From contig JAITMD010000010.1 of assembly GCA_031277535.1 (NCBI GenBank), forward strand, positions 1-64,000: DNA of 64,000 nucleotides, written 5' to 3'. Position 1 is the first letter of the stretch. Each line of letters opens with the position of its first letter. The position numbers and the translations under genes were made by a program. Below, piece by piece: positions 2,832-35,919 of the stretch. The notes beneath the pieces were generated by a model, which was not told the origin of the DNA, ran no database searches, and saw nothing but the letters and a program-made list of their open reading frames with translations. This stretch comes from Flavobacteriaceae bacterium. GTDB taxonomy: Bacteria > Bacteroidota > Bacteroidia > Flavobacteriales > Flavobacteriaceae.

Positions 2832-3485
2832 CTAATCTATGTTGTTAATATAATAATCTGAGTAATTACTCGCAGTAAAGGTAAAGTGATTTTTTGACAA
2901 TGTTTGATTCGTTTTAAAAGAATTAACCGTTAATGTTGATTTCGAACCATCTTTATTCACTTGTATCTTATTATAAATCGCTTTTGTCTTATTGTCTATT
3001 CCTAATAAAATTTCTTTTATCCCTGACTTTTTATCTGTTGGCACCAATTTGATATACTGAATCTGCTTTCCTTTGTTGTTTTGCAAAATGTCCCAACTTA
3101 AATTATACCCTGTACTGAAAAAGGTTAATAATTGACTTGGCAAAATATTATCTTTACTATTAGCATTATATGTTGACACAGTTACCTCTTTATCTTCAGA
3201 AGAAATAGTATACACTTTTTTTCCATCAAAAATACGTTTCACTCCCATAAAATCTAAATAGTATAGATCTTTCTGTATATCAACTGTACCATTTAACTCC
3301 TTAGTACTATTTCCAGTACTCTTATCAACTTGTACATAAGAAAATCCAAGTGATACATTCTTATATCCATTAATTGTCTTTGTTACTTCATTTAAGTAGT
3401 TCTTTGCTTTCTGGCTATTTTGTGCTTGTACACCTAATGAAGCCATAACAAATAGGCTAATGCATAAAACTCTTTTCATCATCAT
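2832..3485 (-). CDS. lolA: LolA-like outer membrane lipoprotein carrier
   Basis: Signal peptide, LolA-like sequence (DFMGVKRIFDGKKVYTIS...), conserved position between ftsK and lptG. Confidence 0.8.
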   Translation of the reverse strand: MMMKRVLCISLFVMASLGVQAQNSQKAKNYLNEVTKTINGYKNVSLGFSYVQVDKSTGNSTKELNGTVDIQKDLYYLDFMGVKRIFDGKKVYTISSEDKEVTVSTYNANSKDNILPSQLLTFFSTGYNLSWDILQNNKGKQIQYIKLVPTDKKSGIKEILLGIDNKTKAIYNKIQVNKDGSKSTLTVNSFKTNQTLSKNHFTFTASNYSDYYINNID

Positions 3486-3491
3486 AAATAT

Positions 3492-5978
3492 TTAGAAATT
3501 ATCTTCTTCGTTATCAAAAAACTGATCCAAAGCCACAAGATCTGGAATCAGTACACTTCTTGCTTTACTTCCTTCAAAAGGCCCAACAATACCCGCAGCC
3601 TCTAATTGATCAATCAAACGACCTGCTCTATTATATCCTAATTTTAGTTTACGCTGTAATAGAGATGCTGATCCCTGTTGAGCTGTTACAATTATTTCTG
3701 CAGCATCTCTAAACAATGAATCTCTATCACTAATATCTATGTCTAAACTTCCTTGTGATCCCTCCTCACCTACATATTCTGGTAACAAATATGCTGTTGC
3801 GTAAGCCTTTTGAGAACCTATATATTCAGTCAACTTTTCAACTTCAGGAGTATCTACAAAAGCACATTGTACACGAATCATGTCATTTCCTTGTGTATAC
3901 AACAAATCTCCACGCCCTATCAATTGATCAGCTCCTCCTCCATCTAAAATAGTACGAGAGTCAATTTTAGAAGTCACTCTAAAAGCTACCCTCGCTGGAA
4001 AGTTTGCTTTAATAATACCTGTAATTACATTCACTGATGGACGTTGTGTCGCAATAATTAAGTGAATACCTATTGCACGTGCCAACTGTGCCAATCGAGC
4101 TATAGGTGTTTCCACTTCTTTTCCTGCTGTCATAATCAAATCAGCAAACTCATCTACAACTAAAACAATATAAGGTAAAAATTTATGTCCATTCTCTGGA
4201 TTTAACTTGCGTTGCTTAAATTTCTCATTATACTCTTTAATATTACGCACCATTGCATCCTTCAATAAACTATAACGATTATCCATTTCTATACAAAGAG
4301 AATTCAATGTATTAATTACTTTCGTATTATCTGTAATAATAGCATCTGAAGCATCTGGTAATTTTGCCAAATAATGTCTTTCTATCTTATTAAATAAAGT
4401 TAACTCAACTTTCTTAGGGTCAACCAAAACAAACTTTACTTCTGCTGGATGTTTTTTATAAAGCAAGGAAGTCAATAATGCATTTAATCCGACAGATTTT
4501 CCTTGTCCTGTTGCACCAGCCATCAGTAAGTGTGGCATTTTTGCCAAGTCAACTACAAAAGTCTCATTAGAAATAGTTTTACCTAAAGCAACAGGTAATT
4601 CCATTTCTGCTGTTTGAAATTTTGGAGAAGCAATTACACTACGCATAGATACAATTGTAGGTTTATTATTAGGCACCTCAATACCAATAGTTCCCTTCCC
4701 TGGTATTGGCGCTATAATACGAATCCCCAAAGCTGATAAAGACAATGCAATATCATCTTCCAAATTCTTAATTTTAGAAATACGTATCCCTGCCTCTGGT
4801 ACAATTTCATATAGAGTAACAGTAGGTCCTACTGTTGCTTTAATTTGAGCAATATCAATTTTATAATTGCGAAGTGTATCTACAATTCTATTTTTATTTT
4901 CTTCTAACTCTTCCTGATCAATTGTTATACCTCCTGAACCATAATCTTTTAACAACTCTATAGATGGAAATTGATAATTAGACAACTCTAAAGTTGGATC
5001 AAACTCACCAAAATCATGTACCAATTGTGCTGCTAAATTCTCCTCATATGTATCTTCATCCTGAACTGCTTCTACTACAAAATCATTTGTAGAACTATTC
5101 AGTATCATTGTCTCAAAAGATGAATCCTTCATTTCTTTCACCGAATTTGTTTTCAACTCAATACTTGAACTATGTTCAATTGTTGGTTTGATACTCTTTT
5201 GATCAAATAAAACTGAATTCTCCTTATTATCTTTACCACCAATAGGTTCTATTGTTTTCCCTACTTCTACAAATGGCTGTTCTATTGCATCAACTATGGT
5301 TTCACTTACGTTAGTTACATTAGTTGTTTGTTCTTCTGTATTAATAGAATCAAAATTTGGATCATTCTTTATTGATGGTAGATTAACAGGAACCTGTTTT
5401 AAAGAATCGCGAATATTAGTTGGTGATAATTTAAAGCGAAACAAAGCAAATACAATTCCTAAGAATACTAATAGTAAAATAGTACCTGTTGTTCCTGTAT
5501 AATCTGCTAAATAACTATTAATATTATATCCAATACTACCTCCCAACAAAGGGTTGTAATTCCAAAAGAATCCTAAAAAAACAGAAAGTAAAATCATAGA
5601 AATTAAATCCCAAAAAATCACACGCTTAATTCTTTGACCTGCAATACCAAAAAAACCATATATCCCGCAAAAAATCAACATTTTAGAGAAGAAAAAGGCT
5701 CCTACTCCGAAACCATCATAAACAAAGAAATGAGCTACAGAAGCTCCATACTTACCCAACCAATTTGTAATTTCTACTGTACGATCATCCAATAAATTGA
5801 TATTACTTTGATCTTCAACTCCTGTCAACAAATAAGAGATAAAGCTCAGAGTAAGTGCAATTCCTGTAATAATCAATAAAATAGTAAATATAAAAGATCG
5901 ATTTTTGAATACTGTAGTATCAAATTTCTGATTGTCCTTTGCGTTTTTTGTATTTGTGTTTTTCTTTTCTGTTTTCAT
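3492..5978 (-). CDS. ftsK: DNA translocase FtsK/SpoIIIE
   Basis: N-terminal TM segments, Walker A (AGATGQGKSVG), Walker B (VLVVDEFADL), C-terminal gamma winged helix (SASLLQRKLKLGYNRAGRLIDQLEAAGIVGP). Confidence 0.96.
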   Translation of the reverse strand: MKTEKKNTNTKNAKDNQKFDTTVFKNRSFIFTILLIITGIALTLSFISYLLTGVEDQSNINLLDDRTVEITNWLGKYGASVAHFFVYDGFGVGAFFFSKMLIFCGIYGFFGIAGQRIKRVIFWDLISMILLSVFLGFFWNYNPLLGGSIGYNINSYLADYTGTTGTILLLVFLGIVFALFRFKLSPTNIRDSLKQVPVNLPSIKNDPNFDSINTEEQTTNVTNVSETIVDAIEQPFVEVGKTIEPIGGKDNKENSVLFDQKSIKPTIEHSSSIELKTNSVKEMKDSSFETMILNSSTNDFVVEAVQDEDTYEENLAAQLVHDFGEFDPTLELSNYQFPSIELLKDYGSGGITIDQEELEENKNRIVDTLRNYKIDIAQIKATVGPTVTLYEIVPEAGIRISKIKNLEDDIALSLSALGIRIIAPIPGKGTIGIEVPNNKPTIVSMRSVIASPKFQTAEMELPVALGKTISNETFVVDLAKMPHLLMAGATGQGKSVGLNALLTSLLYKKHPAEVKFVLVDPKKVELTLFNKIERHYLAKLPDASDAIITDNTKVINTLNSLCIEMDNRYSLLKDAMVRNIKEYNEKFKQRKLNPENGHKFLPYIVLVVDEFADLIMTAGKEVETPIARLAQLARAIGIHLIIATQRPSVNVITGIIKANFPARVAFRVTSKIDSRTILDGGGADQLIGRGDLLYTQGNDMIRVQCAFVDTPEVEKLTEYIGSQKAYATAYLLPEYVGEEGSQGSLDIDISDRDSLFRDAAEIIVTAQQGSASLLQRKLKLGYNRAGRLIDQLEAAGIVGPFEGSKARSVLIPDLVALDQFFDNEEDNF

Positions 5979-6090: not shown

Positions 6091-6591
6091 TTATTTTAAT
6101 ACTTCTAACGCAGCAGCATAATTTGGTTCTTCACTTGTTTCTGCTACTTGCTCTGTGTAAATCACCTTACCTTCTTCATTTACAACAACAACCGCACGAG
6201 ATAACAATCCTTCTAATGGACCGTCTGCAAACAATACACCATACCCTTTACCAAACTGAGCGGTTCTAAAATCAGACAACATTTCTACATTTGCAATTCC
6301 TTCTGCTCCACAAAAACGACCTTGTGCAAATGGTAAATCGCGAGAAATACACAATACAACTGTGTTGTCAAAATTTGCTACTTGTTGATTAAATTGTCTA
6401 ACTGATGTAGCACAAGTTGGTGTATCAACACTTGGAAAAATATTTAACACTACTTTTTTACCTGCGTAATCTTGAAGTTTTTTAACTCCTAAGTCTCCTC
6501 CTACTAATTCAAATTCAGGAGCTATTGTCCCTACTTTAGGTAAATCTCCAATCGTATGAAATGGATTACTTTTTAATGTTACTGTAGCCAT
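6091..6591 (-). CDS. tpx: thiol peroxidase
   Basis: FPSVDTPTCATSVRQFN peroxidatic-Cys motif, 166 aa, Tpx-like throughout. Confidence 0.95.
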   Translation of the reverse strand: MATVTLKSNPFHTIGDLPKVGTIAPEFELVGGDLGVKKLQDYAGKKVVLNIFPSVDTPTCATSVRQFNQQVANFDNTVVLCISRDLPFAQGRFCGAEGIANVEMLSDFRTAQFGKGYGVLFADGPLEGLLSRAVVVVNEEGKVIYTEQVAETSEEPNYAAALEVLK

Positions 6592-6750: not shown

Positions 6751-8151
6751 TTACAACTCTATATTATAGAGTTTCATTTTGTTATATAATGTTTTTCTAT
6801 CTATCCCTAATACTTGAGCTGCTTTTGTTTTATTAAACTTTACTTTCTCTAAAGCTGTACGTATAGCTTGTTCTTCATTGCGAGAAGAAAATAATTTCAA
6901 ATCCTCATCATCTACCATAGTAACAATAGGAACTACTTTTTCTGCTCTTTCTTCAAACATTTCTATTGGTAATACAGTCTTATCAACCACCTCATCACGT
7001 GTCAATAAAACAGATCGCTTAATAATGTTTTTCATCTCACGTAAATTTCCTGGCCAATCATAAGTAAGAAACACTCGTTCTACTTCAGGAGAAAAAGTTT
7101 TCACTGTTTTCTCTAATTCCGCATTTGATTCTTTTAAAAAGTGCTTAGCAAACATTAAAATATCTTCCCCTCTATCTGCTAATTTTGGAGCTACAATACC
7201 AAATTCATTCAAACGATGGTACAAATCTTCTCTAAATTCCCCTTCTCTAACAGCCTTAGGTAAATCTTCATTTGTAGCAGCAATCACGCGAATATCAACA
7301 TCTATTTCATTGCTACTTCCTACTGGTTTTACTTTTCTTTCTTGTAAAGCACGTAATAACTGCACTTGTACTTCATAAGATAAATTACCTACCTCATCCA
7401 AAAAAATAGTCCCTCCATTAGCTGCTTCAAAATGTCCAACTTTGTCACTTACAGCTCCTGTAAACGAACCTTTAATATGTCCAAAAAATTCACTCGATGC
7501 CAAATCTTTAGGTATAGCTCCACAATCGACAGCAATATAAGGTTTATCCTTTCGCTTACTTTTCAAATGAATTGAATGTGCAATATTCTCTTTTCCTGTA
7601 CCACTATCACCTATGATTAAAACAGACATATTAGTTGGAGCTACTAAGTCAATATACTCGTGTAATTGTTTTGAAACAATACTTCCTCCTTTCACATAAT
7701 CTGGAATATCATCAAGATCACTATCTGCAGAAACTTCCGATTTTATTTTCTTTTCTTTTATTGTATTAGCGTCCACTGTCACAGCACTTTTCTTTTCTAA
7801 AGCCTGCTTAATGGTCAACGAAATTTCATCGGGATTAATTGGTTTAGCAACATAATCAAATGCCCCAAGTTTCATTGCATTAACTGCTGTTTTTATTTCT
7901 GTATACCCTGTCATTAAAATTACGTGGGCAGCTGGACAGTGCTTCTTAATAAACTTCAACAACTCGATACCATCACTATCTGGCAATCGAACATCTGTCA
8001 ATACAATATCAAAACACTCTTTTACTATAATTTGCTCAGCTTCAATCGCTTTAAAGGCATTTGATACCACATATCCTTTCTTAGTTAGGAAAGCTTTCAA
8101 CATTTCACAAAACGGAACATCATCATCTATTACAAGAATCTTGTGACTCAT
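6751..8151 (-). CDS. sigma54-dependent response regulator (NtrC family: receiver, AAA+, Fis-type HTH)
   Basis: Receiver domain (KILVIDDDVPFCEM), GESGTGKE-like GDSGTGKENIA, GSFTGA-type GHIKGSFTGAVSD, C-terminal HTH (NKTKAAQVLGIDRKTLYNKM). Start taken at MSHKILV. Confidence 0.94.
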   Translation of the reverse strand: MSHKILVIDDDVPFCEMLKAFLTKKGYVVSNAFKAIEAEQIIVKECFDIVLTDVRLPDSDGIELLKFIKKHCPAAHVILMTGYTEIKTAVNAMKLGAFDYVAKPINPDEISLTIKQALEKKSAVTVDANTIKEKKIKSEVSADSDLDDIPDYVKGGSIVSKQLHEYIDLVAPTNMSVLIIGDSGTGKENIAHSIHLKSKRKDKPYIAVDCGAIPKDLASSEFFGHIKGSFTGAVSDKVGHFEAANGGTIFLDEVGNLSYEVQVQLLRALQERKVKPVGSSNEIDVDIRVIAATNEDLPKAVREGEFREDLYHRLNEFGIVAPKLADRGEDILMFAKHFLKESNAELEKTVKTFSPEVERVFLTYDWPGNLREMKNIIKRSVLLTRDEVVDKTVLPIEMFEERAEKVVPIVTMVDDEDLKLFSSRNEEQAIRTALEKVKFNKTKAAQVLGIDRKTLYNKMKLYNIEL

Positions 8152-8339
8152 ATACTTCAAAATTTATCTGATAGATGCCAAATTTAATGTTTTATAATTC
8201 AGAATCCTACTCGACTTTCATAAAATATAATTCACAATCAAAACTTAAGAAAAAATTAATGAAACTCACCTTACTGTTTTATTATTATTCAGCTCTACAA
8301 TCAAATCGTTTCACTCTAATTCCCTAAACTTACAAAACA

Positions 8340-8516
8340 ACAAAAGGGAGCTTAAGCTCCCTATATGTCTGAAGATTTCTCTTCTTCACCTTACTAACGA
8401 TCTTTGTATTACCTCTCGGCAATCTTTTCTTTTAAAACAAACACTTAATTTTCTTTTTCAATAACTTTTTTAAGTTTTGTTGCTTAAGCACTAAGCTTAC
8501 TTTTTTTATAACACCT
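8340..8516 (-). ncRNA. Predicted unannotated small RNA (candidate)
   Basis: Minus strand: TTTG (8546-8549), 17 nt, TATAAT (8523-8528), then AACTT-aaaa-AAGTT (8464-8477), ATTGCC-GAGA-GGTAAT (8408-8423), GAAGA-GAAA-TCTTC (8371-8384) and AGGGAGC-TTAA-GCTCCCT plus T-rich tail (8345-8362). No ORF. Confidence 0.45.
8345..8362 (-). terminator. Rho-independent terminator
   Basis: Perfect 18-bp palindrome AGGGAGCTTAAGCTCCCT followed on the minus strand by TTTTGTTGTTTTG. Confidence 0.7.
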
Positions 8517-8675
8517 TACGTTATTATAGAATGTAAAAATCATGCCAAACCAGTCCTACCATACCTTTGTTACAAAAAACAATGAAAATCAAACATTTAC
8601 ATATTTATTCAAAAAACAAGTTCTAATTTCACTCTTATAATTCCTCACACAAATTGAGGAAAGTTTACTCAAAAA

Positions 8676-10991
8676 TTAGAATGGATACCCAATTGCAAAG
8701 TTAAACATCAGGTTATCTTTACGCCAACGAGGGTCTCCAAATTGAATATCTTTTACAACCCAACCATTTCCATTAGTTCCATAAGGTACACGCAAAGGAA
8801 ACGCAAAATCAAAACGCAAAACCAAAAATGTAATATCAAAACGCAATCCTGCTCCTGCTCCAACCGCAATTTCATTATAAAACTCATTTGAAAATTTTCC
8901 ACCTATACGGTCTGGTACCTCACTTAGGTTCCAAATATTACCTGCATCTACAAATAAAGCTCCATGAACAATGCTAAAGAGTTTTTTTCTATACTCCAAG
9001 TTCATTTCCAAAACCATATCACCTGATTGATCCGCAATAAACTTTGATTCTATAGTATGAGGATCAAAAGTACCAGGTCCTATTGTTCTTGCTCTAAAAG
9101 CTCTCAAGCTATTTGAACCACCTACATAAAACTGTTTTGTATAGGGCATATTCTTTGAATTTCCATAAGCTACTCCTATTCCTCCATGAAAACGAGAAAT
9201 AAGTTGAGACGTCTTACTCAAACGCATATAGTGTCTAAAATCATGTTCTGTTTTCACATACTGACTAAATGGGATTCCTAAAATGCGTTTCTCATCTCCT
9301 TTATCTGTATTTGCCCCCATAATCAATCCAGTAATATTTCCTGAAAAATCTACTCCTCCTCTATAATAAAAGGTATGTCGCTTGTACTGTTTCATAGTAT
9401 TTGTATATGTAAACGTATAAGAAGGTCCAAATGTCATTTGCTTTTCCACAACTCTCTCCAAAGAAGGATTCCCAGCTGCTTGTTCTCTATACAAATCAGT
9501 TACTCTTTCTGGACTTACATAATTCCCATCAAATATATTCAACAAGTGTTCTTTAGTAGCACTTTCCTTCCATAAATACCCCCAAGATGCTTTAAGTGAT
9601 TTCAATGTATATAATTGCCTACGTTCCAGATACTCCCCTCCTACTGTTAGTCGTGTTTTAGGAACATATGAACTTGACGAACTAAAATCCCAAGGTGAAA
9701 TAATTCGTGGCCAAGTAATACTTGATTCCAAACCTACTTTATATACATCATAACCATTCCCATTAGATCCTAACTGAAAATCTCCTCCTCCATAAGCAGA
9801 AACAGACAGTACTTCTGCTCCTTTAAAAATATTCTTATGACTCCAATTCAAATTAAGCTCTGCTCCACTATAGCTGGCAGAATTTGTTTTACCTAAAAGC
9901 TCTAAACGCAAAGCTTTAGGTTTATCTGGTGTCAAAAAATAATAAACATCTAATTTGTGATTTATACTATCCGTCAGTACAAAAGAGTTTCTAACAAATT
10001 TAAACACACCTAAGTTCACCAACCTATTCAATGATAAATTATGGTTATCTCTATTATAGACATCCCCTTCTTTCAAATAAATAGAGCGATCAAAAATTGA
10101 GGGCTTAAATTTTTTGACAGAATCCAAAATATGAAAATCTTTATAAGTATAAATCTTACTATCGTTTTTATCAAAATGCTCTCCTCCTAATTTATAATCT
10201 GTATTAATATACACGTCTCCTATTGTATACTGTTGTAAAGCCAGCTCAGGTGTTTCCTTTTTTACTTTCACAAACAAATCCACCTGGTGATTACCAACAG
10301 TACTATCTACCTGAATCAATAAATTATCTGCACTAAAATAATAGTACCCTTTATTTTTTAAATGATTATCAAAGCGAACACGTTCATCTTTAATTGCATC
10401 AAGACTATAAGCTTGTCCTGCTTTTAACTTAGAAAACTTCTTTCCTCTACCTAAATATTGTAACAATGGAATAGAATCGTTAGGGTATATTACACTTCTA
10501 ATAGTATACTGTTTTCCTGGTTTAATAGTATATACAATTCCCTTCTTCTTTTTACCTGAAGAAATTGTATCATGAGCCACCATTACATTAAAAAAACCTT
10601 CATTTTCTAAGCGATTAGACAAAATAGAACTTGTGTAATCTGCATCTACCTGACTAAAATACACAGGTGGTTCCCCCATTTTAGTGCGAAGCCAAGTACG
10701 TATCATACCTTGTTTTTCTGGATTACCTCCTAAATTATAAAAATACAATTTAGGATGCATTCCTAAAAAGCTACTATTAGGAATTGGCCGAGTCAAAGCT
10801 TTCAATCCTTCTGTTGCTTCAAATTTCTTTGTTTTACTCCAAGCTACATCTTCCAACTTTATTTCACTTCCTGTAAACAAAGCTTCATCTTCTGGAATAT
10901 ATTTAGTTACACTACAAGAAACCAATAATAAAGACAAAGTTCCTATCAAAGCGTTCTTTACAATCTTACTACTGCTCTTTCTTAGTTTCAT
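8676..10991 (-). CDS. BamA/TamA-family outer membrane assembly protein (lipoprotein signal)
   Basis: Lipobox (LLLVSCSVTKYIP), POTRA-like region, C-terminal beta-barrel motif (GGSNSLRAFRARTIGPG) and terminal aromatic FNFAIGYPF. Overlaps tamB. Confidence 0.9.
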   Translation of the reverse strand: MKLRKSSSKIVKNALIGTLSLLLVSCSVTKYIPEDEALFTGSEIKLEDVAWSKTKKFEATEGLKALTRPIPNSSFLGMHPKLYFYNLGGNPEKQGMIRTWLRTKMGEPPVYFSQVDADYTSSILSNRLENEGFFNVMVAHDTISSGKKKKGIVYTIKPGKQYTIRSVIYPNDSIPLLQYLGRGKKFSKLKAGQAYSLDAIKDERVRFDNHLKNKGYYYFSADNLLIQVDSTVGNHQVDLFVKVKKETPELALQQYTIGDVYINTDYKLGGEHFDKNDSKIYTYKDFHILDSVKKFKPSIFDRSIYLKEGDVYNRDNHNLSLNRLVNLGVFKFVRNSFVLTDSINHKLDVYYFLTPDKPKALRLELLGKTNSASYSGAELNLNWSHKNIFKGAEVLSVSAYGGGDFQLGSNGNGYDVYKVGLESSITWPRIISPWDFSSSSSYVPKTRLTVGGEYLERRQLYTLKSLKASWGYLWKESATKEHLLNIFDGNYVSPERVTDLYREQAAGNPSLERVVEKQMTFGPSYTFTYTNTMKQYKRHTFYYRGGVDFSGNITGLIMGANTDKGDEKRILGIPFSQYVKTEHDFRHYMRLSKTSQLISRFHGGIGVAYGNSKNMPYTKQFYVGGSNSLRAFRARTIGPGTFDPHTIESKFIADQSGDMVLEMNLEYRKKLFSIVHGALFVDAGNIWNLSEVPDRIGGKFSNEFYNEIAVGAGAGLRFDITFLVLRFDFAFPLRVPYGTNGNGWVVKDIQFGDPRWRKDNLMFNFAIGYPF

Positions 10992-15999: not shown

Positions 16000-16126
16000 A
16001 ACAAGCTATTTTTACTTCAAAAATAACAAAATTCACATCAATAAGAAAAGGTTTTAAAGGATATATACGAAGTTTATATAAACAAAAAATCCCCGAAAAG
16101 GAGACTCTAAAGTATTTTAAAAAAAA

Positions 16127-16222
16127 TGGCAAGCTACCTACATCGCACCGCTACAACCTCATACCTTTGCTGCGTTCCCACCCTGGAGGATTAAGAGGGA
16201 GCTGGTCGTGTAGGACTTGCCG
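16127..16222 (-). ncRNA. ffs: Signal recognition particle RNA, bacterial small type
   Basis: Reverse complement GGCAAGTCCTACACGACCAGCTCCCTCTTAATCCTCCAGGGTGGGAACGCAGCAAAGGTATGAGGTTGTAGCGGTGCGATGTAGGTAGCTTGCC carries the GGAACGCAGCAAAGG core and closing stem. Confidence 0.93.
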
Positions 16223-16310
16223 GTGCAAATATACAACCATTTTATATTTTTGCAAGCTTTTTCTACAATTCAATTTAGATTTGTATATTGTATTAAAATT
16301 ATAAAGTGTC

Positions 16311-35817: not shown

Positions 35818-35919
35818 AATATTTTTATAGTTTACTTTTATACTTATTTAAATTGTTCTGAGCGTTGAGCTCGGTTACTCTTAAACAATCTTTATGCCAA
35901 CAGAAAAAAAAGAATATTC

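Follow-up and report, generated by a model that had tools for sequence, protein, structure and literature searches.

In the Pseudomonadaceae, CrcZ and CrcY are terminated small RNAs (sRNAs) driven by sigma-54 and CbrB, and their genes lie next to a response regulator (RR) gene. In Flavobacterium psychrophilum, sigma-54 genes are induced on blood agar and at high osmolarity. For the Bacteroidota, we know of no sRNA that has been linked to a specific activator on the basis of sequence, and the literature searched yielded no such case. In the Enterobacteriaceae, glmY is located upstream of qseEGF, the system QseE/QseF (GlrK/GlrR) being associated with a sigma-54 promoter, a UAS of the form TGT-N12-ACA and IHF (PMC6075780, PMC8745638). 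Among flavobacteria, Rfp36 is a sigma-54 (SM4) sRNA of F. psychrophilum with a -24/-12 promoter, dnaK and groES belong to the sigma-54 (SM4) regulon of that species, Rfp18 is a conserved Flavobacterium sRNA affecting metalloproteases, and the housekeeping box reads TAnnTTTG (PMC9723704).

We analysed a window of 64,000 nt, i.e. the whole stretch from the start of contig JAITMD010000010.1 of a Flavobacteriaceae bacterium (assembly GCA_031277535.1). Between a TamA-like gene (8676-10991), encoding an Omp85 protein, and the start of an RR gene at 8151, the window holds a gap which, judging from the features described below, encodes a real minus-strand RNA of about 175-190 nt that is terminated, structured, non-coding and conserved with covariation; both flanking genes are located on the minus strand as well. 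The RR (6751-8151, minus strand) is of the NtrC type, with the Pfam domains Response_reg and Sigma54_activat, a Fis-type HTH and the motif GSFTGA, and is the proposed activator. The RNA is a real and uncatalogued regulatory RNA, specific to its lineage, whose controller can be identified. Probably, it has a gene of its own in the Myroides clade, acts in trans and is controlled by the adjacent NtrC-type RR. A redoxin/AhpC-type thiol peroxidase gene (6091-6591, minus strand) is found downstream of the RR; together, the Omp85 and peroxidase neighbours raise the question of whether the RR circuit answers envelope or oxidative stress.

By sequence, the window belongs to the Myroides clade: RR orthologues in nine loci (L013-L021), eight of which are named Myroides, are 75-83 % identical to the window RR, and the order TamA-like gene, gap, RR was found in all nine. 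Alignment of these nine gaps with the window revealed a very highly conserved segment within gap DNA that has otherwise diverged. A search with its core, ATCGTTAGTAAGGTGARGAAGAGAAATCTTC, allowing up to three mismatches, yielded exactly one copy each in 19 of 400 same-genus genomes, while the reversed control yielded none; combined with the earlier loci, this gave 21 distinct Myroides-clade sequences, which form the comparison set (alignment A1). Mean pairwise identity in this set was 99 % in the core, 81 % between the core and the terminator, 69 % in the 5' part of the RNA and 55-57 % in the flanking intergenic DNA. The invariant core, ATCGTTAGTAAGGTGAAGAAGAGAAATCTTC (8371-8401, minus strand), comprises 31 nt, i.e. 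the unpaired CGTTAGTAAGGTG and a hairpin, P3.

The strand folds at -38.8 kcal/mol versus a mean of -27.7 kcal/mol for shuffled sequences (z -3.27), better than all 200 dinucleotide shuffles, into a chain of short hairpins. The first of these, P1 (8485-8499, minus strand), is very variable in sequence among species, with a local hairpin predicted in each, and is thus unalignable and inaccessible to pair counting. It is followed by P2, ATTGCC-GAGA-GGTAAT (8408-8423), with compensatory changes at four of seven pairs and 90.5 % of cells paired, and by P3, GAAGA-GAAA-TCTTC (8371-8384), which as part of the core never varies, so that covariation gives no test of it. The terminator AGGGAGC-TTAA-GCTCCCT (8345-8362) is the sole one in 8000-8900 (0.3 expected from shuffles) and is enclosed by an outer helix (whole element 8339-8369) that covaries, one pair being UA in 12, CG in 8 and UG in 1 of the sequences and the next GC in 13, GU in 5 and AU in 3. 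Since the base pairs of this outer helix span the first T-run, the conserved TGTTT that comes next is the probable 3' end of the RNA. In P2 and the extended terminator of the 21 aligned sequences, eight pairs show changes on both sides, with 33 compensatory cells versus 11.6 after shuffling, and 95.4 % of cells are paired versus 46-59 % with slid partners; kinship among the sequences inflates the shuffle-based statistics, an effect that weighs less on the slide controls and on the comparison between genera.

An earlier note on this DNA had proposed a novel minus-strand sRNA of about 175 nt, and this proposal is borne out by the fold, the sole terminator, and the conservation and covariation among the relatives. 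All of the elements that it named are present, i.e. TTTG at 8546-8549, TATAAT at 8523-8528, AACTT-aaaa-AAGTT at 8464-8477, P2, P3 and the terminator with its T-rich tail. The novelty of the RNA likewise held, as Rfam searches at E values up to 10 and at gathering scores, covering the window and 14 loci of relatives, returned no match for the sRNA. Elsewhere in the window, a small SRP RNA was recognised at 16123-16229 on the minus strand (RF04183, 106 bits). The hint of 6S RNA that the note took from the length found no support, given that no Rfam 6S or 6S-Flavo model matched and that no long hairpin with a central bubble is present.

A covariance model (R1), which was built with the window sequence included, scores the window RNA at 155 bits. 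Against 400 Flavobacteriaceae genomes it recovered the own genome only, with nothing in the 399 others, and on the RR loci of relatives its scores stayed at chance level. BLAST with the whole RNA in 60 relatives gave strong matches in two besides the own genome, the weak ones being short and AT-rich. As judged by these searches, the RNA is therefore confined by sequence to the Myroides clade as sampled.

The RNA is presumed to act via the invariant unpaired stretch CGUUAGUAAGGUGAA, held between P2 and P3, with CGUUAGUAAGGUG as the candidate contact for partner mRNAs or proteins. Both the UAAGGUG repeat described next and the invariant hairpin fit pairing as well as protein binding, and we favour pairing through a short seed: short base pairing with target mRNAs would be the most likely mode, and protein binding a less likely one. 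Searching the genome for the complement of the core gave four matches, one being the locus itself, versus nine for the reversed control; considering this absence of enrichment, long perfect target pairing is not indicated. The most extended complement, CCCCTTACTAACG at C15:53644 (L160:1480-1520, minus strand), shows further matches outside the core. It is situated in intergenic DNA, at a long distance from a start codon and separated from the next gene by a terminator-like hairpin, and is not convincing as a target; it may be due to chance.

That the RNA mainly binds or titrates a protein via repeated UAAGGUG and GNRA-capped hairpins, rather than pairing with mRNAs, seems unlikely to us, yet it is the best placed of the rival explanations. 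GlmY acts on RapZ, and CrcZ on Hfq/Crc, by protein binding or titration. UAAGGUG occurs unpaired and twice in 17 of the 21 RNAs, one copy lying close to the 5' end and the other within the core; the core is invariant in its single-stranded part and in its hairpin alike, and the missing enrichment of core complements points in the same direction. Against this, seeds of 6-8 nt would escape the complement search made, the 5' copy of UAAGGUG is altered to UAAAAGUG in L021, L105 and L107 and lost in L110, and no partner protein is known.

Conservation upstream of the RNA is centred on a conserved box, TTGGCAYG...TTAC, that in the relatives reads TTGGCAY-N5-TTNC and that corresponds to a predicted sigma-54 promoter, TTGGCATGATTTTTAC (8533-8548, minus strand), with TGGCA at -24, AC at -12 and GG-N10-AC spacing. 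TGGYAY is kept in 21 of 21 sequences at a near-constant distance to the RNA start, and the sigma-54 spacing GG-N10-NC is found in the window and most of the clade. Seven of the 21 (the clade of L016, L017, L019, L099 and L103, plus L105 and L107) are without GG-N10-NC and carry TTTTGT or TTTTGA one base closer instead, while nearly all sequences are without the G that the sigma-54 consensus has at -13. The promoter is probably of the sigma-54 -24/-12 type. With a start predicted at about 8521, i.e. 12 nt past the -12 C, and an end predicted in the T-rich tail, the RNA would span 8335-8521 and measure about 187 nt.

The genome contains one copy of rpoN and five genes with a full sigma-54 activator domain. 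As positive controls from the same genome, TTGGCAT-N8-GT precedes at short distance the start codons of dnaK (window position 35900, minus strand) and groES. The box before dnaK, TTGGCATAAAGATTGT (35885-35900, minus strand), agrees with chaperone genes being under sigma-54 in F. psychrophilum (PMC9723704). No clear sigma-54 box was seen upstream of the ClpB gene. Genome-wide, TTGGCAYNNNWTTTNNW gave 14 sites versus 4 for the reversed pattern, and none of the other sites was clearly a promoter just before a gene.

The earlier note had instead read TTTG-N17-TATAAT as a sigma-70 promoter with a start near 8516, which would make the sRNA sigma-70/sigma-A-driven and independent of the RR. Both boxes are indeed there, and nevertheless we hold this explanation to be very improbable: a search for such promoters gave 5 sites versus 4.2 expected, i.e. 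chance level, with the named pair not among them, and TATAAT is not kept in the relatives. Furthermore, the housekeeping box TAnnTTTG (PMC9723704) is absent here and present before the RR gene, and what is conserved is TGGCAYR and an upstream dyad, so that the predicted start moves to about 8521.

Two further sites upstream of the sigma-54-type promoter are predicted. An IHF-like site, TAAATGTTTGATT (8587-8599, minus strand), matches YAANNNNTTGATW at nine of nine positions; at least eight of nine matches were found in 17 of 21 sequences, versus a mean of 4.2 and a maximum of 9 in shuffles, and the best match lies at -52/-53 in 18 of 21. Further upstream, 124 nt from the -24 box, a 17-bp dyad, TGAGTAAACTTTCCTCA (8655-8671, minus strand), is the predicted RR site. 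Its clade form is TGTGGAA-N3-TNCACA, and such a dyad is present at -113 to -136 in 21 of 21 Myroides sequences, the copy of the window being weak and the most degenerate of the set. A possible second half-site, TGAGGAA (8641-8647, minus strand), has its counterpart in the relatives in a second TGTGGAA at about the same place. In L020, where the intergenic region is some 380 nt longer, the dyad has stayed at a constant distance from the promoter and not from the TamA-like gene.

The RR gene has its own predicted housekeeping promoter, whose -7 box, TAAATTTG (8179-8186, minus strand), fits the flavobacterial sigma-A consensus (PMC9723704). TANNTTTG was found in 14 of 14 readable loci, 33-38 nt ahead of the RR start, being exactly TAAATTTG in 13 of them. 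The RNA is thus a separate unit and probably an output of the RR, not its leader. The explanation as a leader or attenuator of the RR mRNA, or as a remnant 3' UTR of the TamA-like gene, could appeal to the position of the RNA between both genes on the same strand. It is even less probable than the sigma-70 reading, since the terminator is followed by about 190 nt with that separate promoter near the RR start, the unit keeps its promoter spacing in L020 despite the longer intergenic region, and in several relatives a hairpin and a T-run come just after the TamA-like gene. Translation of the conserved core as a short ORF can be dismissed almost entirely, given that the one frame open through it in the window (30 aa, 8330-8422) is interrupted in most relatives by TAG directly before ATCGTT, that the longest ORFs differ among species in frame, start and sequence, with no ORF conserved across the 21 sequences, and that the few core changes follow no synonymous pattern while the helices covary.

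Our preferred reading, a stand-alone RNA gene under the adjacent RR, can be drawn as a simple circuit. The phosphorylated RR would bind the dyad near 8655-8671, an IHF/HU-type protein may bend the DNA at 8587-8599, and the RR would then activate the sigma-54 RNA polymerase at the -24/-12 promoter, giving rise to the RNA from about 8521 to the terminator. With a candidate for each of promoter, activator site and activator, this regulator-sRNA circuit becomes directly testable in a phylum whose sRNA control is poorly mapped.

The earlier note missed the link to the adjacent sigma-54 RR and likewise that relatives have a small-protein gene at this position. Outside Myroides, RR orthologues share 52-66 % identity with the window RR, while the four other activators of the genome reach at most 48 %. 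In 57 loci read from other Flavobacteriaceae, the orthologous RR is preceded by a gene for a secreted protein of 98-119 aa, distantly PepSY-like in some loci (E 0.002, below the curated cut-off). TGGNAYN5TTNC stands before the small-protein gene in 50 of these 57 units (0.2 in shuffles) and the half-site TGTRGAA/TTCYACA upstream of the unit in 44 (3.4 in shuffles), counts that are not independent, as many of the loci come from one genus, Aquimarina. There, the half-site appears as a dyad, GTGTA-N7-TACAC. The promoter type also occurs in Flavobacterium, Muricauda/Allomuricauda and several other genera. In Paenimyroides (L022), whose RR is 65 % identical, no recognisable unit was found at that place, and searches of 19 Myroides genomes for the small protein found it in none. 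Regulation is likely to be common to the Myroides RNA and the unit of the relatives, and the 17-bp dyad together with the half-site TGTRGAA offers a starting point for mapping which genes this conserved RR controls.

The 3' ends of the small-protein units deserve attention in their own right. Among 38 distinct sequences from Aquimarina and related genomes (L025-L070), the 65 nt past the stop codon are 94 % identical, versus 76 % for both the small-protein coding sequence and the start of the RR gene. Being more conserved than coding sequence, this UTR is probably a functional RNA and, as far as sequence can tell, probably another unrecognised one; Rfam returned no match for the 3' UTRs of L036 and L041. 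A hairpin ATATCGT...ACGATAT and AAAGTTGTTTAGTGC were seen ahead of the terminator. In Muricauda/Allomuricauda (L072-L077), the 3' UTR carries a conserved G/U-rich stretch, GTGTTAGGTTAGTT...TTTGGTT, just before the terminator, which resembles the GUUAG of the Myroides core.

Two units precede the RR in F. macacae (L024), at 3093-3545 and 3560-3945, which look like a tandem duplicate with a shared 3' end. The first contains the small-protein gene (approximately 3159-3458), while the second has a promoter, TTTGGCACACTTTTTTC, at about 3700 and no long ORF, and its 3' end (approximately 3858-3940) closely resembles the 3' UTR of the unit with the gene. G378, which is probably the same species, likewise has two copies, at a distance of 399 nt. 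The ORF-less unit is similar to that of Myroides in its place before the orthologous RR, its promoter TTGGCAC-N5-TTTTC and its terminator, which has the same architecture and ends in TTGTTT, but the invariant core is absent. When four Myroides RNAs were compared with the 3' UTR of L023, 0, 1, 3 and 6 of 200 shuffles scored as well, which is suggestive; the similarity to L024 is weaker, at the edge of significance, and shared descent is thus treated as possible only.

Considering these units together, it is tempting to speculate that the Myroides sRNA is the remnant of a sigma-54-controlled mRNA whose protein gene was lost while the promoter, the activator sites and the 3' RNA were kept, a view that we put forward tentatively and with somewhat more doubt than belief. 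The ancestral unit would have consisted of a small secreted protein and a functional 3' UTR RNA, as in other Flavobacteriaceae, and in F. macacae the unit would have been duplicated, followed by loss of the ORF from one copy. If so, the 3' UTRs that this unit has throughout the family would form a lineage of unrecognised regulatory RNAs. If the comparison among relatives holds, the way in which an sRNA arises from the 3' end of an mRNA would be laid out in natural stages, i.e. a gene with its 3' UTR, a gene with an ORF-less copy, and the sRNA alone.

Among the known systems, CrcZ is longer than the Myroides RNA and has repeated CA-rich motifs, which the much shorter Myroides RNA is without. 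Moreover, CrcZ lies downstream of cbrB and the Myroides RNA upstream of the RR gene, and the CrcZ Rfam model reached 10.3 bits versus a threshold of 95, i.e. chance level. By description alone, the RNA resembles Rfp36 as a flavobacterial sRNA from a -24/-12 promoter, and Rfp18 as a conserved and structured RNA with several stem-loops, although no sigma-54 link is reported in the text for the latter (PMC9723704). The GlmY and GlmZ Rfam models gave no match at E values up to 10, so that the resemblance to GlmY is one of analogy and not of membership; the phylum differs, and no sensor kinase gene adjoins the RR in the window. By analogy, GlmY beside qseEGF nevertheless appears to be the closest counterpart, given that the Myroides sRNA gene likewise lies directly upstream of its presumed activator, with sigma-54-type boxes, an IHF-like site and a dyad whose half-sites are similarly spaced (in many sequences TGT-N11-ACA). 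As far as its predicted features go, the locus has what is found in sigma-54- and RR-dependent sRNAs as a kind, i.e. a non-coding, terminated and structured RNA, -24/-12 spacing in the window and most of the clade, upstream and IHF-type sites, and a genome with rpoN and an enhancer-binding protein.
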